Below, piece by piece: positions 1,417 through 14,185 of a stretch of DNA of 26,970 nt. The notes beneath the pieces are model-generated. The model saw only the letters and a program-made list of their open reading frames with translations. It did no database searches and was not told the origin of the DNA. The first letter of the stretch is position 1. Each line of letters starts with the position of its first letter. This DNA is from a virus. The translations under genes were made by a program, and so were the position numbers. The stretch spans positions 1 to 26,970 of IMG/VR virus record IMGVR_UViG_3300032116_001111. The stretch is one strand, 5' to 3'.

Positions 1417-4113
1417 ATGACCGCGCCGCTCGCCTGGGATTCGAAAGACCCAGATGATATCGACGATTTTGACATCGATTGGTCTGCGCGCCTTGTAACC
1501 GACGAAACGATCTCGACCTCGACGTGGCTGCTGCCTTCGGGGATCACGAGGGTTTCCGACACAAACACGGCGACGACCACGACGATCATTTTGGCGGCGG
1601 GTTCGGCTGGCGCGCTCTACACGCTCACCAACCGGATCACGACGTCTGGCGGCAGGACGCTCGACCAGGATGTGAACCTGCTTGTCGAGGGCAACGGGCC
1701 AGCATCGACGAACAGCGTTCTCCTCTATCCGGGTTCGCCGCTGTACGATTCCGAGGCATCCATTGTTCTCGAGCCGTCCGGTAGTGAAGCGACTGACTCC
1801 GCGAACTTTGCCGCTGCGGCACTTCTCGGGCGCAATGTCGTCATGCGGGATCCGGACGGCACAAAGTTTCGCTTGACAGGCACTATTCCTGTGTACGCTC
1901 GCGTCAAGGGCCTAGGCACTCCGGAGATCATCTTCCGCATCTCACAATCATCGCAGCGCGGCTTGTGGGGCAAGTCCGGCGGGGGCATGGAATTCTTCAA
2001 GATCACGCACATCGTCGACGGCGTGCGGCCTACGAATGGCTCTTTCGGGTGCGCCATTACGACATCAGTTTATGCAGACGATCACGAGGAATGCCGCAGT
2101 TTCAATCTGAGCAACATCTGGTTCGACTGTTCTGCGATCAACGGCGGCGATATTTGGAACACTATTTCGGTGATGGGGAATACCCATTCATTCAAGTTCA
2201 GCAACCTGACGTTTACCGGCGATTATCTGATCCCGATTCTTTGCCATTGGGGCTTTAACCGCCAAGGCACCGCGCAAGTGCAGGTCAGCTATCATCCGCG
2301 CCTCGCGATCTTTGAGAATATCTTCTGCCTGAATAAAGCCGACGCGACGGATTCGGGGAACCTCCTCAATGAAGTTTGCTACGGCATCTACCTCTCTGGC
2401 GTCCATGATGTGGTGATCACCAACCATGTGACGCGCGGCGGCAAGAATGGTCTGATCATCACACCCGGCGATCACGGTGACTGGCGTGCGGACCTTGCCA
2501 GCGCCGGCCGCACAATGTCGGGCATCGTCATCAATGGGTTCACGGCCGAAAATGTCCCCGGCAAGATGCTTTGGGTCAATGGCGTCGCGACACTGGTGTC
2601 CTACTATCCGGCGCGCTGGGTTGGCACCAACCACGACATGAATGTCACGATCACCGGCATCACTTGCCGGCGCGGCAACAACAACGACAATTCGACAAAC
2701 CCCGGCCAGATCCTCGTTTCGCACTGCAAGAATGTGTCGATCCGCGGGATGGACATAGCGAACATCAACGAAAACCCGTTCGCCAACGACAACGACCCCG
2801 TCGTCGAGGTGCAATCCTCGATCAATTGCGACATTCAGGGGACGACACGATCGGCCTTCGGCTGGCAACTGACATCAGGACGGAACATCCGCGTCAATGC
2901 GAGCGCGTATTGCTCGCGCGCGACGGCGACGAGCGGACTGGTCGGTATCAGGGTTGTTGGCGGCATACTGACAGCGACGGCGGAAAGCGCTGTCTCTGCT
3001 GGCGGGACATCCGTCGTATTCGACGTCAGGACCGACATCTATCCGGGCATGCTTTTTGAATATAACGGGACGTTCTTCGAGTTCACGTCAGGGGCGTACT
3101 ACGAGACAGATGACAACGGTCTCAGTGTTGCTGCCAATGACAACATCACGCACACGATTCAGCCAGCGCCAATTGCGATCCCGAACGGGGCGACAATCAC
3201 GCTGCACACTGGCGTCAACGGCGCGCGCATCGACGACGGCGAGGTTTCTGGCTTCTTTACCCATGTCGAGGTCGCATCCTCTGACGCGCGGATGCCGAAT
3301 GACGTCCGCATTGTCGGGACCAAGTTCTCGCGGTCGCAGAAATACGACATCGACTGGCAGAATGGAGAAGGCGAGGTCAACGGCACATCGCACGAATTCT
3401 CGAACATGGCCGGTCTTGCGGGCATCGCGCAGATCAATATCGCGGGCGGCCTACTCGACGTCAAAGGTCCGAAGTTCAATCGCAGGACGCGCTGGCCGAA
3501 GAACGCTTACCATGTCTTCAGGCAGACTGCGGCAAGCAATCTTGGCGAGATTTCCGGGTGCCTATTCGGCGGCGTGGATGAACTGCAGAGTGGATCCAAG
3601 GGCGCAATACGCCTTGGCGCGCAGGGCAATCCGCCTGACCTGATCTTCGGCAATCGTTACGCGCCGTCTATGGGTACTCGTATCGTGTCCGCGTCTCTTG
3701 CGACGCGTCTCACAATCGGTCAGACGGAATTCATCTCCGATACCGCGCCGCTTACCACGGGCGATCTCGAGGACGGCACCTACACCTTCGACAACGATGC
3801 GGCGGCGGCGGGCGTGGGCATCTCGGTCATCACCACAGAAGGCACGTCCGGCACGCTGAACGGCGGCGCCACGACAGGCACGATCACAGATCAGGATCAG
3901 ATCCTTGTCGTCAACTCAACGACGGGCCTAGCGGAAGGCAATCGCATCACCATTGTCGGCGCTAATGGCACCTACAAGGTTTGGCGCATCGACGGACTGA
4001 ATGTGTACCTGACATCAAAGGTCACGACGACTGTCGGTGGCGCAACTCTCACGGCTGCTGCGGTCGCGTTCGCGGCCCCGGTCAGCAAAACTCTCGCAAC
4101 AGCGGCGGCCTGA
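1417..4113 (+). CDS. Probable tailspike: fibre-adaptor N-terminus plus beta-helix
   Basis: An 898-residue protein with two visible parts. Residues about 8-92 (DPDDIDDFDIDWSARL, then STSTWLLPSG and ITTSGGRTLDQ) resemble the small phage fibre-tail adaptor domain, often a separate protein of about 110 residues; here it is fused to the rest. From about residue 130 on, the sequence is a long run of short Asn/Gly/Val/Ile-rich strands, starting with a pectate-lyase-like entry (GTKFRLTGTIPVYARVKGLG). This is the pattern of a right-handed parallel beta-helix as in tailspikes that bind or cut capsule, O-antigen or exopolysaccharide. Catalytic acids cannot be chosen by eye. No signal peptide is present. 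The gene lies upstream of the terminase rather than after the tail-tip genes. The ribosome binding site is weak (TCGGA about 11 bases upstream). Confidence 0.72.
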   Translation: MTAPLAWDSKDPDDIDDFDIDWSARLVTDETISTSTWLLPSGITRVSDTNTATTTTIILAAGSAGALYTLTNRITTSGGRTLDQDVNLLVEGNGPASTNSVLLYPGSPLYDSEASIVLEPSGSEATDSANFAAAALLGRNVVMRDPDGTKFRLTGTIPVYARVKGLGTPEIIFRISQSSQRGLWGKSGGGMEFFKITHIVDGVRPTNGSFGCAITTSVYADDHEECRSFNLSNIWFDCSAINGGDIWNTISVMGNTHSFKFSNLTFTGDYLIPILCHWGFNRQGTAQVQVSYHPRLAIFENIFCLNKADATDSGNLLNEVCYGIYLSGVHDVVITNHVTRGGKNGLIITPGDHGDWRADLASAGRTMSGIVINGFTAENVPGKMLWVNGVATLVSYYPARWVGTNHDMNVTITGITCRRGNNNDNSTNPGQILVSHCKNVSIRGMDIANINENPFANDNDPVVEVQSSINCDIQGTTRSAFGWQLTSGRNIRVNASAYCSRATATSGLVGIRVVGGILTATAESAVSAGGTSVVFDVRTDIYPGMLFEYNGTFFEFTSGAYYETDDNGLSVAANDNITHTIQPAPIAIPNGATITLHTGVNGARIDDGEVSGFFTHVEVASSDARMPNDVRIVGTKFSRSQKYDIDWQNGEGEVNGTSHEFSNMAGLAGIAQINIAGGLLDVKGPKFNRRTRWPKNAYHVFRQTAASNLGEISGCLFGGVDELQSGSKGAIRLGAQGNPPDLIFGNRYAPSMGTRIVSASLATRLTIGQTEFISDTAPLTTGDLEDGTYTFDNDAAAAGVGISVITTEGTSGTLNGGATTGTITDQDQILVVNSTTGLAEGNRITIVGANGTYKVWRIDGLNVYLTSKVTTTVGGATLTAAAVAFAAPVSKTLATAAA

Positions 4114-4116
4114 TAA

Positions 4117-4953
4117 ATGCCTCTTTACAGCCAGAGCCTTCGCGTCATCGCGACGATCACAAACCATGCGGGCACGCTGTCAGCCGCGCCTGGCACGAAC
4201 GTCGCGAGCGGCGGCACCGCGCATACGGTCGGGTCGTGGACAACGCTTCTATCCGCCGCGCAGGTCACAAGGAATCTGCACAAGTTGGTGTTCTCGCCGT
4301 GCGGTACAGGTGCTTCGGCGACGCAGACCGATGCGTTGATGGATATCGCAGCAGGAGAAGCTGGGTCCGAAGTCATCATCATGCAGAACATCCCGGTCGG
4401 ATGGGGCGCTGTGCTGACATCATTCTTGCCGAAAGCGATAGTCCTGCCGTTGTTCTGGCCCCGGAACACAAGGCTTTCCGCGCGTGTTCGCGGAATTCGT
4501 ACCTCGACCAATCACAACATCCTTGTCACCGGTCTCGCGTATTCGAGGCGTCCAGCGATCTGCTTTACCGGAATCGACATCCTCGGCGGCAATCAGGCGG
4601 CATCGCAGGGGACTTCGGTCTTAGGTGGAAATACAAGTACCCCAGGAAGCTGGATCAGCATTGGCTCGGCGACATCCCGACGGTATGGCGGCGTCCTTCC
4701 GCTCGTGCAGGGCACCATGAATGCGGCCGCAACGGCGCTGTCTTATGGCGTCGACGTAGGATATGGCAGCGCCATGCTGCCCAATTCGCCGGATTGGCGC
4801 TTTTTTATCTCAAACTCGGAATACAGCTTCGGCCCGCTGCCCAACGAATTCATGCTCGCGGACATCCCGACAGGTACGCAGATGCAGATGCGCGCAGCAT
4901 GTTCAGGAACGGCTGAAGCCCTGGATTTTGTTCTCGCAATGGGATGGAACTGA
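4117..4953 (+). CDS. Unknown virion-like protein after the tailspike
   Basis: This encodes 278 residues, starting 3 bases after the tailspike stop with no clear ribosome binding site, so coupled translation is likely. The composition (Ser, Thr, Ala, Gly, few charges; repeated aromatic-polar strands such as WRFFISNSEYSFGPLPNEF near residues 228-246) suggests a beta-rich structural protein. There is no signal peptide, membrane helix or enzyme motif. Position suggests a partner of the tailspike, such as a second receptor-binding or capping protein. I do not recognise the family. The reading frame is confidently real because it is long, in phase with operon spacing and followed by a strong ribosome binding site for the next gene. 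Confidence 0.7.
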   Translation: MPLYSQSLRVIATITNHAGTLSAAPGTNVASGGTAHTVGSWTTLLSAAQVTRNLHKLVFSPCGTGASATQTDALMDIAAGEAGSEVIIMQNIPVGWGAVLTSFLPKAIVLPLFWPRNTRLSARVRGIRTSTNHNILVTGLAYSRRPAICFTGIDILGGNQAASQGTSVLGGNTSTPGSWISIGSATSRRYGGVLPLVQGTMNAAATALSYGVDVGYGSAMLPNSPDWRFFISNSEYSFGPLPNEFMLADIPTGTQMQMRAACSGTAEALDFVLAMGWN

Positions 4954-4963
4954 GGAGTTTGAA

Positions 4964-5416
4964 GTGAAGGCGAAACGCGGCAGGGGAAGGCCGGCGTACG
5001 TGCCAACGGTTGCGGCGATGAAAAAGGTCGAAGCACTGGCAGCGGCTGGCATCAAGCGCGAAGCGATCGCGCACATGCTGGAAATCAACATCGACACGCT
5101 CGAGAAGTATTACCGCCAAGAGCTCGAGACCGGGAAGGATGTGATCCGCGGGAAACTTGCTCTCGCTCTTCACAAGAAGGGCATGGAGGGCAACGTCGCT
5201 GCGATTAAGGCCTTCATGGCGTTAAGCGACAAGGACTCCGCACTTCGAGATGCAGAAGAGGCTTCGCGGAACCTGACCGGCGACGTCGAGCCCACGGCAC
5301 CGCCACCGAAGTATGTCGGCAAGAAAGAGCAGGCGCTGGCGGATGCGAAGTCGCTGATTGAGACCGACGATCTGCTGAACCCGCATTCGCTGCCTGAAGC
5401 GACAACGCTCCAGTAA
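4964..5416 (+). CDS. Terminase small subunit (DNA recognition)
   Basis: This encodes 150 residues. The N-terminus (GRGRPAYVPT, then a helical segment GIKREAIAHMLEINIDTLEK at residues about 29-48) is a helix-turn-helix like those by which small terminases bind the packaging site. The next region (LALALHKKGMEGNVAAIKAF) is helical and typical of oligomerising phage TerS. GTG at 4964 is chosen because GAGGAG at 4952-4957 sits 6 bases upstream; the same frame extends back to 4763, but that part is only a shadow of the preceding gene. The stop overlaps the TerL start by one base (TAATG), supporting co-translation. Its ring would recognise phage DNA and hand it to TerL. Confidence 0.8.
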   Translation: MKAKRGRGRPAYVPTVAAMKKVEALAAAGIKREAIAHMLEINIDTLEKYYRQELETGKDVIRGKLALALHKKGMEGNVAAIKAFMALSDKDSALRDAEEASRNLTGDVEPTAPPPKYVGKKEQALADAKSLIETDDLLNPHSLPEATTLQ

Positions 5417-8253
5417 TGCAGTATTGGGACACGTCCTGCCCGGATTGGGTCGAAAGGCTCAAGTCCAGGCGGCCGCTTGTCCCGGAATTGCCGCTGTTCA
5501 CACCTATGCGCGACAAGGCGCTCCGGGTGTTCAAGAGGCTCCGGCTTCCCGATGTGATCGGGACGCCGACGCTTGGCGAAGCGTGCGATGAGTGGTTGTT
5601 CGCGATCGTGGGGGCGCTATTCGGTTCCTACGACCCGGATCGAGACGTCCGGCATATCCAGGAACTCTTCGAGCTCATACCGAAGAAGAATTCGAAGGCC
5701 CTAGAATTGAGCACTCTTGTCGCTACGCCGACAGGGTTCTCAAAAATCGTCGACTTAAAGGTCGGGGATGAGGTCATTGATGTAGATGGCCGCCCAACAA
5801 AGGTTACGTGGAAAAGCCCCGTAATGATCGGGCACCCATGCTTCGAGGTGACATTCAGCACTGGCGAAAGCGTAATTTGCGACGAGGGTCATCTTTGGGT
5901 AACTGATAGCCACCGTGACCGGGAAGCATCATGTAAGACAAGAGCGCAGAAAAGCGATGGTACACGGCGTGCCCCACGCCCGTCAGTGAAGACTACAAAG
6001 CAGATTTATGAAAGCCTGAAGGTAAAGTCTGGCAAATATACGATTAACAACCACCGCATGAGGCTGCCGCAGGCGCTTGATCTTCCGGAGGCCGCCCTGC
6101 CTATCCATCCGTATGTTTTAGGGGCGTGGCTGGGTGATGGATCGACAACGCAGGCGGTGATAACTTCATCTGTGGGCGACGCCGATGGGATGCTTTCTCG
6201 CATTACGGCTTGTGGCCAACCGGCATACAATAAAGCATACCCCTCAAATCCCGGGGCCATATCGATCCGGCTGGCTGACGGCACAAACAGGCGACCGAAA
6301 TACGGATACGTTTTTCTGAGAGAGGCAAGGCGGCTCGGAGTTGTTGGCAACAAGCATATCCCTGATATCTACCTGCGTGCGTCATACGAGCAAAGGCTGG
6401 AATTGCTGCGCGGGCTCATGGATACGGACGGCACAATATCAAAGTCTGGGCAAGCGTCTCTATCTACAACTCTTCCGGCGATTAGGGACGGGGCCGTAGA
6501 GTTAATCAACTCTTTGGGGTTGAAGGCGTCATTTTCAGAATCTCGCGCCATGCTGAATGGCAAGGATTGCGGTCCAGTGTGGACGGTGCAGTTTTGGCCT
6601 TATGATCAGATTTCGGTCTTTAACATCGAGCGGAAAAAGTCACGGCAGAGCCGCGCATCTGCTCGGAATGCACAGAGGTCAAAACACCGGAACATTGTGA
6701 ATGTGCGGCCTGTCGCATCAGTCCCTGTTCAGTGCATTTCAATCGAGAGCCAAACTAAAGAATTCCTGATCACAAAATCTCTGATCCAGACGCACAATTC
6801 GACCAGTTCGGCGGGCATCATGCTCACCGCGGCGATTCTGAACCGCAGGCCGAACGCCGAAGCGGTATTGGTGGCGCCGACGAAAGAGATCGCCGACATT
6901 GCCTACGGGCAGATCGAGGGCATGATCAAACTAGATCCTGACCTGATCAAGCTCTTTGAGATGCACCGGCATATCCGGGTGATCAATCACCGGATGACGG
7001 GGCTGACGCTGGCGGTGAAAGCTGCCGACGTTGATGTCATCACCGGCGGCAAGCAGGCCTACACCCTTGTCGATGAGGTTCACGTCTTCTCATCCCGCAA
7101 GGATGCCGAGAAGAGCTACACCGAAATCAGGGGCGCACTGGCGGCGCGGCCTGATGGGTTCTTTGCTCAGATTACGACCCAGAGCAAAGACCCGCCGGCT
7201 GGTATCTTTGCCCAGGAGCTTGCTCGAGCGCGCGATGTCCGCGACGGCAAGATTAACCTGCCGACATTGGCGGTGCTCTACGAGTACCCCGAAGAGGAAT
7301 TGAATGCGGCTCCTGAGCTTTGGAAGAACCCGGAGACGTGGGCCTGGGTAAATCCGAACATCGGGCGGTCCGTAAATCAGGATTATCTCAGCCGCGAGCT
7401 GATGACGTCGGAGCGTAAGGGGGCGGCTTCGGTCAACCTCTTCGCGTCGCAGCACTTCAATGTCGAGATCGGCATTGGGATGCGGCTGGATCGCTGGGTC
7501 GGCGTCGATTATTGGCTTCAGGCCGCTGACAAGTCTCTGACGCTGGATGAGGTGATCCGGCGGAGCGAAGTGCTGGTCGCCACGATTGACGGCGGCGGGC
7601 TCGACGACTGGTTTGGCCTCTGCATCATGGGGCGTGAAAAGGGCACGGGAACGCATCTCGCTTGGACGCATGCGTGGTGCCACGAGGGCGTTCTGAAGCG
7701 TTACCCGGATATGGCTTCGACCTACCGGGACTTCGAAGCCGACGGCGATCTCACGATCACGAACTACCGCGTCGACAACGTGAAGAAGTCAGAGGTCGAA
7801 GGCGAGGAAGACAAGGTTGTCTCCACCGTCGCTGTCGATCTCAGGGAACTGGTCGGCTACATCAAACTTTGTGAGGCGTCCGGCAAGTTGGGCCCGATAG
7901 GGCTGGACCCGTACGGCGTCACCGCGGTCGTTTCGGCGCTCACCGATGCCGAATTTGATCCTGATGAGCGCATGATGGCTGTCAGCCAGGGCTACAAGCT
8001 CCAGGGTGCGATCAAATCGACCGAGTTGTATCTTGAGACTGGGGCGCTACGGCACTCCGGGTCGAGAATGATCAATCACTGCGCATCGAATGCGCGGACT
8101 GAGAAGCGCGGCAACGCGATCTTGGTCACCAAGGCGGCGAGCGACGGAAAGATTGATCCACTGATGGCGCTGTTCTCGGCGGAATCGGTGATGTCGACCA
8201 ACCCGGAGCCGGCGGGAAGCATTTACGAACAGCGTGGCCTCCGGGTCGCATAA
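5416..8253 (+). CDS. terL: Terminase large subunit, interrupted by an intein
   Basis: A 945-residue precursor of the ATPase-nuclease motor that packages DNA through the portal. Removing the 367-residue intein (residues 95-461) leaves 578, normal for HK97-type TerL. The joined extein reads PKKNSK-STSS, a Walker A variant of the PRKNGKS type. Walker B is LVDEVH with Asp553-Glu554. The C-terminal RNase H-like nuclease is marked by Asp725 in IDGGGLDDW, Asp831 in GLDPYG and Asp914 in KIDPL. The gene overlaps TerS by one base and is followed 10 bases later by the small membrane protein. Because the intein splits the ATP-binding loop, the unspliced precursor should be unable to package DNA, so splicing is probably essential. 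Family certainty is high. Confidence 0.95.
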   Translation: MQYWDTSCPDWVERLKSRRPLVPELPLFTPMRDKALRVFKRLRLPDVIGTPTLGEACDEWLFAIVGALFGSYDPDRDVRHIQELFELIPKKNSKALELSTLVATPTGFSKIVDLKVGDEVIDVDGRPTKVTWKSPVMIGHPCFEVTFSTGESVICDEGHLWVTDSHRDREASCKTRAQKSDGTRRAPRPSVKTTKQIYESLKVKSGKYTINNHRMRLPQALDLPEAALPIHPYVLGAWLGDGSTTQAVITSSVGDADGMLSRITACGQPAYNKAYPSNPGAISIRLADGTNRRPKYGYVFLREARRLGVVGNKHIPDIYLRASYEQRLELLRGLMDTDGTISKSGQASLSTTLPAIRDGAVELINSLGLKASFSESRAMLNGKDCGPVWTVQFWPYDQISVFNIERKKSRQSRASARNAQRSKHRNIVNVRPVASVPVQCISIESQTKEFLITKSLIQTHNSTSSAGIMLTAAILNRRPNAEAVLVAPTKEIADIAYGQIEGMIKLDPDLIKLFEMHRHIRVINHRMTGLTLAVKAADVDVITGGKQAYTLVDEVHVFSSRKDAEKSYTEIRGALAARPDGFFAQITTQSKDPPAGIFAQELARARDVRDGKINLPTLAVLYEYPEEELNAAPELWKNPETWAWVNPNIGRSVNQDYLSRELMTSERKGAASVNLFASQHFNVEIGIGMRLDRWVGVDYWLQAADKSLTLDEVIRRSEVLVATIDGGGLDDWFGLCIMGREKGTGTHLAWTHAWCHEGVLKRYPDMASTYRDFEADGDLTITNYRVDNVKKSEVEGEEDKVVSTVAVDLRELVGYIKLCEASGKLGPIGLDPYGVTAVVSALTDAEFDPDERMMAVSQGYKLQGAIKSTELYLETGALRHSGSRMINHCASNARTEKRGNAILVTKAASDGKIDPLMALFSAESVMSTNPEPAGSIYEQRGLRVA
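5698..6798 (+). mobile_element. Class 3 intein with LAGLIDADG homing endonuclease in TerL
   Basis: An in-frame protein intron of 367 residues (TerL precursor 95-461) between Lys94 and Ser462 of the Walker A loop. It starts with Ala instead of Cys or Ser (ALELSTLVATPTG, then LKVGDEV). Block B is GESVICDEGHLW with His159 and Trp161. Block F is VPVQCISIES with Cys440 at the place of the usual Asp. Block G is QTHN followed by Ser, with Thr459, His460 and Asn461. Ala1 plus the Trp-Cys-Thr triplet is the published signature of class 3 inteins, in which the block F Cys is the first nucleophile. Between blocks B and F are two LAGLIDADG motifs (VLGAWLGDG with Asp241; LRGLMDTDG with Asp338), both with the expected catalytic acid, so the homing enzyme looks intact. 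Hand-counted samples are 40-47% GC versus 60-68% in the extein. Confidence 0.93.
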
Positions 8254-9738: not shown

Positions 9739-11048
9739 GCGATTTCCCTCATCTTCGCGCGGCCATCTACTCGGTGCCGTGGGCGATCATGCCGGAGCGG
9801 CTGGAAGCGATCGCCGAGGTTTTCGAGCGCCGACTTCAGGGTATTCGAAAGAGCCCGGAAGAGATCGCTGCTATAAAGGGCGAACGCGCGGGCGTGAACG
9901 GTGGCCTGGAACTTCGCGCGCTCAGTGATCCATCAGCCCCTCTGGCGGCAGCAGGCCAGGCAGCGCCTTCAGGCGGATTGATCGCCGTGATCAATATGCA
10001 CGGAATCGTCGCCCAGCACGCTTCGCAGGTCGACGACATCAGCGGCCCCGGCGGCACGAGCACGGAGCGCGTTGGCGCCAGTTTCCGGACGGCGATGTCT
10101 GACCCGAACGTCAAGGCGATCGTGCTGAACATCGACAGCCCTGGCGGCAGCGTTAACGGTGTGCAAGCACTATCGGATGAAATCTACCGTTCCCGCGGCA
10201 AGAAGCCGATCGTGGCGCAGGTCAACAGCCTTGCTGCTTCGGCTGCATACTGGATTGCGGCATCGGCGGATGAGATCGTGGTGACGCCTGGCGGCAACGT
10301 CGGCAGCATCGGCGTCTACGGAACGCACAAGGATGTCTCGGTTGCCGCGGAGAAAGAGGGCGTCAAGGTAACGTTCATCTCGGCCGGTAAATACAAGGTC
10401 GAGGGGCATCCCTTCGAGCCCCTGAGCAGCGAAGCCGCGCAGGCGATGCAGAAGAGCGTCGATGCATATTATGCTGACTTCCTCCGCGCCGTCGCACAGG
10501 GCAGGGGGGTCAGCACTGAGGATGTCCGCACCGGATTCGGCGAAGGCAGGATCGTAAAGGACAAAGAAGCGGTGCGCGAGCGCATGGCGGATCGTGTCGA
10601 CACGCTCGACGGCACGTTGAAGCGTCTTGCGAAGGGACAGCGCCCAAGCGAGCGCGCCAAGGCCGCGGCTCCTGCATGGCCAGAAAATTTCGCATCGTAC
10701 GAGCCGCCGGCAATTCGTGTCGAGACGGATAGGGAAACCCAAACCTTTGTTGCAGAGCGCCCATGGCCGCAATCAATCATCTTGGCCGATGTCTTCCTTG
10801 ACGGCCATGGAAGGCCAGTGGCCTTAGAGAGCGATACTACCTTCACAATCAACGTCGCGAACGGCATGGCGGTTTATGAGATCGTCGGCTCGCGCACGAT
10901 GGGCGACGAAGGCACCGACTTTGCCGCCGTTCTCAAAGACAGCCTGTACGAGCCGATGCCCTCGGCCGCTGCCCAGCAATCGGCCGAAGACCGAGATGCG
11001 TTCCGCCGCCGGCGTCATGCCGCGCGTCTGCGCTCCCTGAGTATCTGA
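9735..11048 (+). CDS. S49 (SppA-like) head maturation protease with C-terminal extension
   Basis: This encodes 437 residues. Residues about 75-295 form a ClpP/SppA-fold serine protease like phage lambda C: the oxyanion strand NIDSPGGSV, the nucleophile Ser169 in NSLAASAAYW, and Lys221 in AGKYKVEG. The Ser-to-Lys spacing of 52 matches the Ser-Lys dyad of Bacillus-type SppA. In this phage class the enzyme trims the scaffold part of the capsid protein during head assembly, and the capsid gene follows directly. Phage members are commonly near 300 residues; here about 140 extra residues follow, including a compact-looking segment (about 336-405) before the basic AFRRRRHAARLRSLS tail. The extension may act as scaffold or capsid-binding part. 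The start overlaps the portal stop (ATGA). Confidence 0.92.
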   Translation: MSDFPHLRAAIYSVPWAIMPERLEAIAEVFERRLQGIRKSPEEIAAIKGERAGVNGGLELRALSDPSAPLAAAGQAAPSGGLIAVINMHGIVAQHASQVDDISGPGGTSTERVGASFRTAMSDPNVKAIVLNIDSPGGSVNGVQALSDEIYRSRGKKPIVAQVNSLAASAAYWIAASADEIVVTPGGNVGSIGVYGTHKDVSVAAEKEGVKVTFISAGKYKVEGHPFEPLSSEAAQAMQKSVDAYYADFLRAVAQGRGVSTEDVRTGFGEGRIVKDKEAVRERMADRVDTLDGTLKRLAKGQRPSERAKAAAPAWPENFASYEPPAIRVETDRETQTFVAERPWPQSIILADVFLDGHGRPVALESDTTFTINVANGMAVYEIVGSRTMGDEGTDFAAVLKDSLYEPMPSAAAQQSAEDRDAFRRRRHAARLRSLSI

Positions 11049-11071
11049 TCACCAAGCATTGAGTTGTGCGC

Positions 11072-11094
11072 CCCACAGACCGCCGGGCTGTGGG
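11072..11094 (+). terminator. Hairpin between protease and capsid genes (weak terminator or mRNA stabiliser)
   Basis: CCCACAG (11072-11078) and CTGTGGG (11088-11094) are perfect complements around a 9-base loop, followed five bases later by TTTT (11100-11103). It lies in the 97-base gap before the capsid start. The T-run is short and displaced, so full termination is doubtful. Partial termination or protection of the 5' end of a capsid transcript is equally possible. Confidence 0.4.
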
Positions 11095-11145
11095 CTGAGT
11101 TTTCGCGCCTATCGCCCGGCAAGTATTCACAATGAGGTAACGAAG

Positions 11146-12528
11146 ATGGAATCCTTGAAAGCCCTCAAGCAGAAGGCGGCCGACCTCGCGAAAGAGGCCG
11201 ACGCCATTTTCGCGGCTGCGGCTGCGGAGAAGCGTAATCTGACGGATGAAGAAAACAAGCGTGATGACGAAATCTCGGCTGAGTTCGAGAAGCTGTCGGC
11301 TGATATCCAGCGTGCAGAGCGTCATCAGGCTCGCCTGCGCACGATGGACTTCACCGGCCGCGACAGCGCCCCGGCTGATGCCAATGCCATCGCGGCGGCT
11401 CGCGCTGCTGTTCGTGGCGGCGTCCACACTCCCGGCGAGCGTTTCGCCAGCCTCGGTGAGCAGATGCTTGCTGTCGCGGCTGCTGATCGCAAGGCTCTTG
11501 GTCAACAGGATCCCCGCCTCGTGTGGTTCGATGGCACGGGCGTCTCTGCGGCAACCGGTCTGAGCGAAAGCGTCGGCTCCGATGGCGGCTTCATGGTCGA
11601 AACGCAGATGGCCGATGTGATGCTCCGCCCTGTGTTTGAGGGCGGCGAGATCGCTTCGCGCGTCACCCGCATCCCGATCGGCCCGAACGCCAACGGCATC
11701 AGCGCCAACGGCGTCGATGAGACCTCTCGCGCGACCGGCTCGCGTTGGGGCGGCGTTCGCGCCTACTGGACGGGTGAGGCCGACGCCATCACCGCATCGC
11801 AGCCGAAGTTCCGTCGCATCAAGATGGAACTCGATAAGATCACGGCGGCCTGCTACGTCACCGGCGAACTCCTGAAGGACTCCACCGCCCTCGAGGCGAT
11901 GATCCGCATGGCCTTCTCGGACGAAATCGCGTTCAAGCTCGAAGACGCGATCGTGCAGGGCACTGGCGCCGGCGCTCCGCTCGGCTACCTGAATGCGGGT
12001 TCTCTCGTCACGGTGTCGAAGGAGACCTCTCAGGTCGCAGCGACCATCGTCGCGGAAAACATCCTGAAGATGTGGATCCGTATGCCGGCGCGTCTCCATC
12101 GCTCCGCTGTCTGGCTCTGCAACCAGGATATTGAGCCGCAGTTGCACCAGCTCAACGTGAAGATCAAGAATGTCGCCGGTTCTGAGAACGTCGGTGGCAT
12201 CGCGACTCCTACGGTGATCTACAACCCGCCCGGCACGAACGGCTCCACTGTCGGAACGCTCATGGGCCGTCCGGTGATCCCGGTCGAGTATGCCTCGACC
12301 CTCGGCACTGTCGGCGACATCCAGCTCGTCGATCTCAGCCAGTACATGCTGATCGACAAGGGCGGCGTCGAAGGCCAGTCGAGCATCCACGTTCGCTTCC
12401 TCTACGATGAGACCTGCTTCCGGTTCATCTATCGCGCGAACGGTATGCCGATCTGGAATTCTGCTGTGACCCCGTACAAGGGCACCAACACGCAGAGCCC
12501 GTTCGTCGCCCTCGAAACCCGCTCGTAA
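11146..12528 (+). CDS. Major capsid protein, HK97 fold
   Basis: This encodes 460 residues. The first 70 or so are strongly helical and charged (KALKQKAADLAKEADAIF, EKLSADIQRAERHQARLR), the coiled-coil delta domain that serves as built-in scaffold and is usually cut off by the head protease. The remainder is the HK97-type shell domain, opening near residue 146 (SDGGFMVETQMADVM) and closing with a beta-rich region (ETCFRFIYRANGMPIWNSA). ATG 11146 is chosen because GAGG at 11134-11137 is 8 bases upstream; the same frame runs back to 11059 but those codons lie in the hairpin-bearing gap. Hairpins lie on both sides of the gene, and it has the longest upstream gap in the head block, consistent with separate control of this highly expressed protein. 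The cleavage site cannot be placed by eye. Confidence 0.93.
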   Translation: MESLKALKQKAADLAKEADAIFAAAAAEKRNLTDEENKRDDEISAEFEKLSADIQRAERHQARLRTMDFTGRDSAPADANAIAAARAAVRGGVHTPGERFASLGEQMLAVAAADRKALGQQDPRLVWFDGTGVSAATGLSESVGSDGGFMVETQMADVMLRPVFEGGEIASRVTRIPIGPNANGISANGVDETSRATGSRWGGVRAYWTGEADAITASQPKFRRIKMELDKITAACYVTGELLKDSTALEAMIRMAFSDEIAFKLEDAIVQGTGAGAPLGYLNAGSLVTVSKETSQVAATIVAENILKMWIRMPARLHRSAVWLCNQDIEPQLHQLNVKIKNVAGSENVGGIATPTVIYNPPGTNGSTVGTLMGRPVIPVEYASTLGTVGDIQLVDLSQYMLIDKGGVEGQSSIHVRFLYDETCFRFIYRANGMPIWNSAVTPYKGTNTQSPFVALETRS

Positions 12529-12542
12529 CCCCTGACATAACC

Positions 12543-12564
12543 GCAGCCGGGTAAGCCCGGCTGC
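12543..12564 (+). terminator. Perfect 9-bp hairpin just after the capsid gene
   Basis: GCAGCCGGG (12543-12551) pairs perfectly with CCCGGCTGC (12556-12564) around the 4-base loop TAAG. It begins 14 bases after the capsid stop. No T-run follows, so as a terminator it would be Rho-dependent or weak. Protection of the capsid mRNA 3' end from exonucleases is a good alternative. Confidence 0.55.
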
Positions 12565-12594
12565 ATCCCGAAATTCAACCAAGGAAACCGTGAG

Positions 12595-13074
12595 ATGAAG
12601 CTCTCTCTTCCGCAGCAGTTCAAAATTGTCGAGGCGATGGCCCCGGCAGCCGACGCCGCAGGTCGCACGTCGGACTATGTTTCGCTGAAGAACGTCGACA
12701 AGGCCTGGATCGTTTTCACCACGACCCAGGGCAACGCGGCGACCATCGCGATCACGCCCAAGCAGGCTACGGCCGTGGCTGGCACGAGCGCGAAAAACCT
12801 CACCGTCAGCGTGCCGATCTGGGCAAACCTTGATACCGCCACGTCCGACACGCTTGCTCGCGCAACCGATGCCACCAGCTACACCACGGACGCCGCCATA
12901 AAGAACAAGGTTGTGGTGATCGAAATCGATCCCCGCCACCTCGATGTCGACGGCGGGTTCGACTGCATTGCGTTCACGACCGGTGCCTCCAACGCTGCGA
13001 ACATCACGCAGGGCATTTTCATTCTGGAGTATCGCTATCAGCAGTCTTCGCCTCCGGCCGCGATCACGGACTGA
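12595..13074 (+). CDS. Small head-region protein after capsid (possible decoration protein)
   Basis: This encodes 159 residues, mainly beta-strands with Ala/Thr/Val-rich stretches (KAWIVFTTTQGNAATIAIT, KVVVIEIDPRHLD, GIFILEYRYQQ). Proteins of this look and length often follow the capsid gene in HK97-type phages of Proteobacteria and are listed as hypothetical or as head stabilisation or decoration proteins. There is no catalytic motif or membrane segment. AAGGAAACCGTGAG precedes the ATG. Hairpins lie upstream and downstream, so it could be translated from its own processed transcript at high level, as a decoration protein would require. That role is inferred from position only. Confidence 0.75.
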   Translation: MKLSLPQQFKIVEAMAPAADAAGRTSDYVSLKNVDKAWIVFTTTQGNAATIAITPKQATAVAGTSAKNLTVSVPIWANLDTATSDTLARATDATSYTTDAAIKNKVVVIEIDPRHLDVDGGFDCIAFTTGASNAANITQGIFILEYRYQQSSPPAAITD

Positions 13075-13095
13075 TAGCCAGTTCGTAACGACAAG

Positions 13096-13120
13096 GTGGG
13101 TCGCGATCCTCGCGGCCCAC
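13096..13120 (+). terminator. 10-bp hairpin after the second head gene
   Basis: GTGGG-T-CGCG (13096-13105) pairs with CGCG-G-CCCAC (13111-13120), giving nine Watson-Crick pairs and one G-T wobble around the loop ATCCT. It lies in the 63-base gap between two head genes. The next ribosome binding site, GAGGGGA, follows about 6 bases after the stem. There is no T-run, so mRNA stabilisation or modest attenuation is more likely than full termination. Confidence 0.5.
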
Positions 13121-13137
13121 AGCAAGAGGGGAAATAA

Positions 13138-13581
13138 ATGTACGTCCGTTCTCTCATCGGCCAACGTGCTGGCCAGATCATTGAGACGCCTTATCACGTC
13201 GCTCAGGCGATGTTTATGAACGGCACAGCGGAGCCTGTGACGCCAGAAGAGGTCGAGGCGGCAAAGTTGCCGCCGGTAAGCCAGATCGAAACAAGGATGG
13301 GTGAAGACGAAATTCCGCAAGGATATGCGATCGAACCTGATCCATTCAAAGGCTTCAACGTCAAGGATCCGGGCGGCCACATCCTGACGAAAGACATTTT
13401 GCTCGAAAACATGCCACGGGCCCGTGAGTGGGCGCGCGAGCATCATGCCACGGTGCTTGGTGTACGGCCTCCGCAGGCTTCGAAACCTGGGCGCCCTGTA
13501 GGCGGCAGTAAACAGCAGCAGGCAGCGGCAATCGCGGCTGCATCGGCTGCGTCTCCGCCCCCTCCGCCTTCCGAAGAGTGA
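13138..13581 (+). CDS. Conserved small head-region protein, low-complexity tail
   Basis: This encodes 147 residues. The N-terminus (MYVRSLIGQRAGQIIETPYH) resembles short phage proteins found between capsid and connector genes whose start reads as a small beta-hairpin. The middle has DPFKGFNVKDPGGHILTKD and a helical segment (ENMPRAREWAREHHA). From about residue 108 the sequence becomes Pro/Gly/Ala/Gln-rich and likely disordered. GAGGGGAAATAA precedes the ATG, a strong ribosome binding site. The function is unknown to me; position suggests a minor head or head-completion factor. The long reverse-strand frame through this region is a coding shadow. Confidence 0.72.
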   Translation: MYVRSLIGQRAGQIIETPYHVAQAMFMNGTAEPVTPEEVEAAKLPPVSQIETRMGEDEIPQGYAIEPDPFKGFNVKDPGGHILTKDILLENMPRAREWAREHHATVLGVRPPQASKPGRPVGGSKQQQAAAIAAASAASPPPPPSEE

Positions 13582-13585
13582 AGAA

Positions 13586-14185
13586 ATGGAACGGATCACC
13601 ACTGTCGAGACAGCCGCCAGCCAATACCTGACGGACGTCTCAAGCGTGAAGGCTGATCTTGGCATCACAGATTCGTCTGAGGATGCCTACCTTGTCCGGC
13701 GTGTCAGTGAGGCATCTGCCCTTGCAGCGCGATATTGCGGCAGGGTTTTCAAGTCTGAGGTGGTGACTGACCGGTTTTACCTTGACGATCTGATGCCATC
13801 TCTGGTGTTGGCGCGTTTCCCGGTTACGGCGATTTCCAGCGTGACTGAAAACGGCGATGCGGTCGCATCGACGGAATATCGGTGCGACACAGAGACGGGA
13901 ATCTTGTACCGGCTTGATACCGATGGGAATCGGGTTCAGTGGGAAGCCGACACGGTAGTCGTCGCGTACACCGGCGGCTACACAACTATCCCCGCAGATT
14001 TAGACGGTGCGGTGATCGGCCTGATCAAGCACATGCGGGCATCCCGTCGGCGTGATCCTTCGGTTCGTAGCGTCCGCGTTCCGGATGTTATCGAGACGAC
14101 GTTCTGGGTCAAAGGGCCTGGGGAAAGCAACCTTCCCCCGGATATCGCCGGCACGCTTGATCTCTACAGGGCCGCGCGCCTGTGA
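13586..14185 (+). CDS. Head-tail connector (gp6-like / phiE125 gp8 type)
   Basis: This encodes 199 residues. It has the look of head-tail connector adaptors that dock under the portal: an N-terminal helical region (SVKADLGITDSSEDAYLVRR, then VSEASALAARYCGRVF), the central LVLARFPVTAISSVTENG strand with a conserved PV turn, and the C-terminal ADTVVVAYTGGYTTIPADL followed by helices (GAVIGLIKHM). Such proteins form a 12- or 13-fold ring sealing the DNA exit path. It starts 4 bases after the preceding stop and ends in a 4-base overlap with the next gene (GTGA). The pattern LxRFPV plus YTGGY plus IPxDL is strong support for this family. Confidence 0.85.
   Translation: MERITTVETAASQYLTDVSSVKADLGITDSSEDAYLVRRVSEASALAARYCGRVFKSEVVTDRFYLDDLMPSLVLARFPVTAISSVTENGDAVASTEYRCDTETGILYRLDTDGNRVQWEADTVVVAYTGGYTTIPADLDGAVIGLIKHMRASRRRDPSVRSVRVPDVIETTFWVKGPGESNLPPDIAGTLDLYRAARL

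Follow-up and report, generated by a model that had tools for sequence, protein, structure and literature searches.

A class 3 intein in the Walker A loop of a phage large terminase subunit

An insert that splits the ATP-binding loop of a DNA-packaging motor raises the question of what the insert is, and whether it regulates the motor or uses the gene as a place to reside. We examined such an insert in a 26,970-base metagenomic IMG/VR virus record (hereafter the window), which is probably a fragment of a phage genome.

The terminase gene and its insert

The interrupted gene is a single open frame across extein, intein and extein (Table 1), and its product is an HK97-type large terminase subunit (TerL). 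On the precursor, Pfam TerL_ATPase and TerL_nuclease were matched at residues 461-590 and 640-922, i.e. on the C-terminal side of the insert, and PHROG terminase profiles matched both flanks of the intein. The best named relative of this TerL is that of an Agrobacterium phage (46.5%). Scanning genome contigs with the C-extein returned only two relatives, in Methylobacterium and Rhizobium, both intein-free. An alphaproteobacterial host is plausible for the phage.

Two other frames of the window were recorded. Upstream of the terminase genes, an 898-residue product (1417-4113, + strand) resembled at its N-terminus the podophage fibre-tail adaptor Gp77 (Pfam PF23148, E 3e-19), unlike the remainder of the window, which is siphovirus-like (tape measure, tail J protein). 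A 911-residue frame (10933-13668, - strand) runs antisense to the major capsid gene (11059-12528, + strand); high-GC coding sequence probably accounts for it as a shadow frame.

Table 1 Features of the terminase region and of the intein (positions in the window; a slash marks the splice site).
Feature	Position	Strand	Remarks
Probable small terminase (TerS)	4763-5416	+	PHROG 309 terminase small subunit, E 1e-7; real start may be downstream
TerL precursor ORF	5416-8253	+	945 aa including intein; Pfam TerL_ATPase and TerL_nuclease; PHROG 9 terminase large subunit
N-extein, residues 1-94	5416-5697	+	Ends in Walker A ...IPKKNSK; PHROG 7622 terminase large subunit at residues 3-96
Class 3 intein with LAGLIDADG homing endonuclease, 367 aa	5698-6798	+	Precursor residues 95-461
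Splicing block A, ALELSTLVATPTG	5698-5736	+	Ala1 (precursor A95) replaces nucleophile
Cys48	5839-5841	+	Aligns with disulfide partner of catalytic Cys in M. smegmatis DnaBi1 (PMC6195587)
Splicing block B, GESVICDEGHLWVT	5863-5904	+	D62 (B7), H65 (B10), W67 (B12, precursor Trp161)
LAGLIDADG motif 1 (block C), YVLGAWLGDGST	6112-6147	+	Catalytic acid D147
LAGLIDADG motif 2 (block E), LELLRGLMDTDGTIS	6397-6441	+	Catalytic acid D244; Pfam Hom_end and LAGLIDADG_3
Splicing block F	6724-6771	+	C346 at F4 (precursor Cys440), class 3 internal nucleophile
Splicing block G, SLIQTHN/S	6778-6801	+	T365 (G5, precursor Thr459), H366, N367 (precursor N461), Ser+1 (S462)
C-extein	6799-8250	+	Starts STSSAG; remaining ATPase domain and nuclease domain

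The insertion lies in the Walker A loop between K94 and S462 (PKKNSK/STSS). All 17 intein-free TerLs inspected, including those of Agrobacterium phage Rivra, Vibrio phage Vaitephage and Burkholderia phage Bcep176, aligned through the joined junction (e.g. IPKKNSK^SSSSG in L084, the caret marking the corresponding point), and in a wider scan the loop was unbroken at the insertion point in 80 of 80 further TerL relatives. Since these relatives run seamlessly over the joined junction, the intein boundaries are right, and the unbroken alignments put the insert after the Walker A Lys and ahead of the next Ser/Thr, as a preliminary description of the locus had claimed. The residues named in that description (A95, W161, C440, T459, N461 and S462) were all found at their places, as were the terminal His-Asn-Ser (H366, N367 and S462) and both LAGLIDADG acids (D147 and D244) of an endonuclease that, as claimed, looks intact; Pfam Hom_end and LAGLIDADG_3 scored above cut-off on the insert. 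The predicted lengths also agreed, with 367 residues for the intein and 578 for the joined exteins (..PKKNSK-STSS..). An NCBIfam search gave nothing useful. PKKNSK/STSS is a TerL1-a site, at which a Terminase_1-type TerL is interrupted after the Lys and before the Ser/Thr of Walker A; PMC5050341 uses this name for what it calls the 'classic' P-loop insertion of mycobacteriophages.

Class 3 assignment and known relatives

According to the same paper (PMC5050341), class 3 inteins have a WCT triad at B12, F4 and G5 and lack a nucleophile at A1. In the window intein W67, C346 and T365 form the triad, each aligned with its counterpart in 6RIX (M. chimaera DnaB1 intein, class 3). Position 1 (residue 95) is Ala, with neither Cys nor Ser, the boundary being set by 6RIX residue 1 and by the intein-free TerLs. 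When the PDB was searched with the 367-residue insert, 6RIX was the top match (whole-match E 8e-20); it covered stretches 1-78 and 333-367 of the insert, touching both junctions exactly. With a profile of 50 related inteins the 6RIX match reached E 2e-37, and the class 3 DnaB1 inteins 6RIX and 6BS8 were the best matches in the PDB. This resemblance is far beyond chance. All 50 aligned inteins had His at B10, Trp at B12, Thr at G5 and Asn at G7, and 49 had Cys at F4. In a tree without a class 1 outgroup, the window intein fell amid class 3 phage inteins.

The structure of the intein was predicted with pLDDT 94.1 and pTM 0.92. The model resembled class 3 DnaB1 inteins across the splicing domain, and many of the viral predicted structures near it were terminases. 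Across its full length, splicing domain and LAGLIDADG endonuclease, it shared the fold of PI-SceI (the S. cerevisiae VMA intein), at 16-18% identity. PI-SceI is a class 1 intein with a Cys1 nucleophile; for the window intein, a class 1 assignment with a misplaced start was considered and rejected. We concluded that the insert in the TerL Walker A loop is a class 3 intein. The signature given in the preliminary description (Ala1 and WCT) was confirmed by the 6RIX alignment and by the columns of the 50 inteins: the true start is Ala1, and C440 falls at F4. Its further view that Cys or Ser at position 1 would refute the class was too strict, as L003 (Cys1) and L110 (Ser1) possess the whole triad. 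L003 holds a TerL P-loop intein (2425-3441; IPKKNGK/C...THN/T) with a mixed class 1/class 3 signature. Tori and Perler (2011) reportedly demonstrated class 3 splicing for Catera Gp206, a phage intein that has Ser1; L110, from RecB of phage Colt, is presumably such a case, and we take L003 to be similar.

A different variation was seen in four distinct TerL P-loop inteins (PPRHGK/...THN/T) from L042, L045, L048 and L053-L055 (also numbered L191-L196). They keep the class 3 Trp and Thr, have Ser for Cys at F4, and begin with Leu, Ser or Gln. They may represent a class 3 variant that uses Ser as its nucleophile, or Thr+1 may attack directly; a survey requiring Cys at F4 (PMC7891396) would miss them.

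That survey, from 2020, put the number of class 3 inteins at 1701 and recorded LAGLIDADG motifs in 82.5% (PMC7891396), so the statement in the preliminary description that the class is known from few examples is outdated. Sequence related to the window intein was found in 102 viral stretches, 80 of which were kept, and in 731 phage records; dozens of viral loci displayed the TerL P-loop pattern ...GK/x...THN followed by Ser or Thr. Class 3 inteins thus placed are common in phages, and their kind is already known. The intein of mycobacteriophage JeTaime (L102) is like that of the window in its Walker A Lys/hydroxyl site in TerL (ARKNGK/ALDV...THN/T), Ala1, WCT triad and class, but it belongs to another TerL family and phage and is 34% identical. 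Judged by its insertion site, it is probably a TerL1-a intein, a group reported from mycobacteriophages by Kelley et al. 2016 (PMC5050341). The TerL inteins of Clavibacter phage CMP1 (L082) and Stenotrophomonas phage SOVA965 (L081) share the triad and a P-loop Lys/Thr or Lys/Ser site, but they start with Asp or Pro, are 37% identical to the window intein and belong to other TerL families. IMG/VR loci L002 and L008 carry sister inteins in the window's own TerL family, at the same insertion residue and with Ala1 and WCT, at about 40% intein identity and 41-45% C-extein identity. Finally, M. smegmatis DnaBi1 (6BS8) and M. chimaera DnaB1 (6RIX) share the class 3 signature, Cys48 and a DxxH block B, and DnaBi1 also resides in a P-loop (PMC6195587); both differ in being mini-inteins without an endonuclease, in a replicative helicase.

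Mobility of the element

Three intein carriers were found in the window's TerL family (the window, L002 and L008), all with the intein at the same residue. Their inteins clustered with an SH-aLRT of 93, which is below the starred threshold of 95, the window branch being long; L002 and L008 alone clustered at 99. The C-exteins of the three were scattered amid intein-free TerLs, and a single carrier clade was rejected (p-AU 2e-6). The intein was poorer in G+C than the exteins (52.5% versus 59.9% overall, 56% versus 76% at third positions). Since the inteins are related but their terminases share no common clade, and the composition differs as well, movement of the element between TerL genes at the same site is the simplest account, with loss from many lineages as a possible part of it. 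The conflict between intein and extein trees lends indirect support to putative homing of the window intein.

Sequence comparison establishes how the element is built, its class signature and junctions, the conservation of its catalytic residues and its scattered occurrence on the TerL tree. Very probably, this element in the Walker A loop of an HK97-type TerL is full-length, is likely competent to splice, and unites a class 3 intein and a LAGLIDADG homing endonuclease. Most likely it is a selfish homing element that splices constitutively. We infer that splicing would be efficient and constitutive and that the endonuclease would be active. After translation, the block F Cys (C346), aided by H65 and T365, would attack the Lys94-Ala1 peptide bond; the N-extein would be transferred to Ser+1 and Asn367 would then cyclise, yielding an intact TerL and a free endonuclease of the predicted 578 and 367 residues. 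Once free, the endonuclease would cleave the P-loop codons of TerL genes that lack the intein, and their repair would bring in a copy of it. What counts against this reading is that the window is a metagenomic virus fragment, which leaves the viability of the phage a presumption, and that the grouping of its intein with those of L002 and L008 falls short of the support threshold on a long branch.

The metagenomic source could also suggest that the insert is no intein at all, an idea we regard as scarcely credible: the exact intein blocks at both junctions, the seamless intein-free alleles and the inserts at the identical residue in two independent relatives, L002 and L008, rule out an assembly artefact as well as an ordinary in-frame domain insertion. 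Decay of the intein, with splicing perhaps kept, the homing endonuclease dead and the element heading for loss, would fit the small number of carriers in this TerL family. It is nevertheless unlikely, as the frame is open throughout, the LAGLIDADG acids and surrounding motifs retain residues invariant among the 50 relatives (both acids are Asp in all 50), and the endonuclease fold is predicted with high confidence over the entire insert.

Redox control and significance

Could splicing instead serve as a switch, as the preliminary description suggested by way of inference? If oxidation formed a Cys48-C346 disulfide, splicing would halt and TerL would be left without a working ATP site until conditions improved. 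One strong precedent exists, the class 3 intein DnaBi1 of the M. smegmatis DnaB P-loop: H2O2 drives its catalytic Cys118 into a disulfide with Cys48, and splicing stops reversibly (PMC6195587). In the window intein the aligned Cys48, which the preliminary description had missed, and the block F Cys are both in place, as they are in the inteins of L002, L008 and JeTaime. However, 32 of the 50 class 3 inteins in the alignment had Cys48, in unrelated genes (TerL, DnaB and RecB contexts), as did 35 of 82 by looser pairwise alignment, and mutation of Cys48 in DnaBi1 abolishes splicing (PMC6195587), so that the residue may be kept for folding or catalysis. Because it is both common in class 3 relatives and itself needed for splicing of DnaBi1, Cys48 is no marker of a terminase switch. 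The TerL relatives examined (80 of 80 and 17 of 17) had no intein, and packaging control in this family is therefore independent of it. In addition, five mycobacteriophage TerL-type inteins spliced readily in an MBP-intein-GFP reporter (PMC5050341). Such a redox-gated switch thus seems very improbable, and marginally more so a working toggle in which the disulfide keeps TerL unspliced in an oxidised host, delays genome packaging and thereby benefits the phage. On this analysis, regulation of packaging by the window intein is unlikely.

By itself the window intein changes little. What it contributes is one more clean class 3 intein of TerL, accompanied by relatives that lack the intein and by two sisters inserted at the same residue; its source is probably, or at least plausibly, a phage of alphaproteobacteria. 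The intein and its relatives would be a usable set for homing tests, and because Cys48 is conserved, the redox idea could be tested cheaply beyond mycobacteria. The window intein thereby extends a known pattern, that of phage-spread class 3 inteins at the P-loops of packaging motors.
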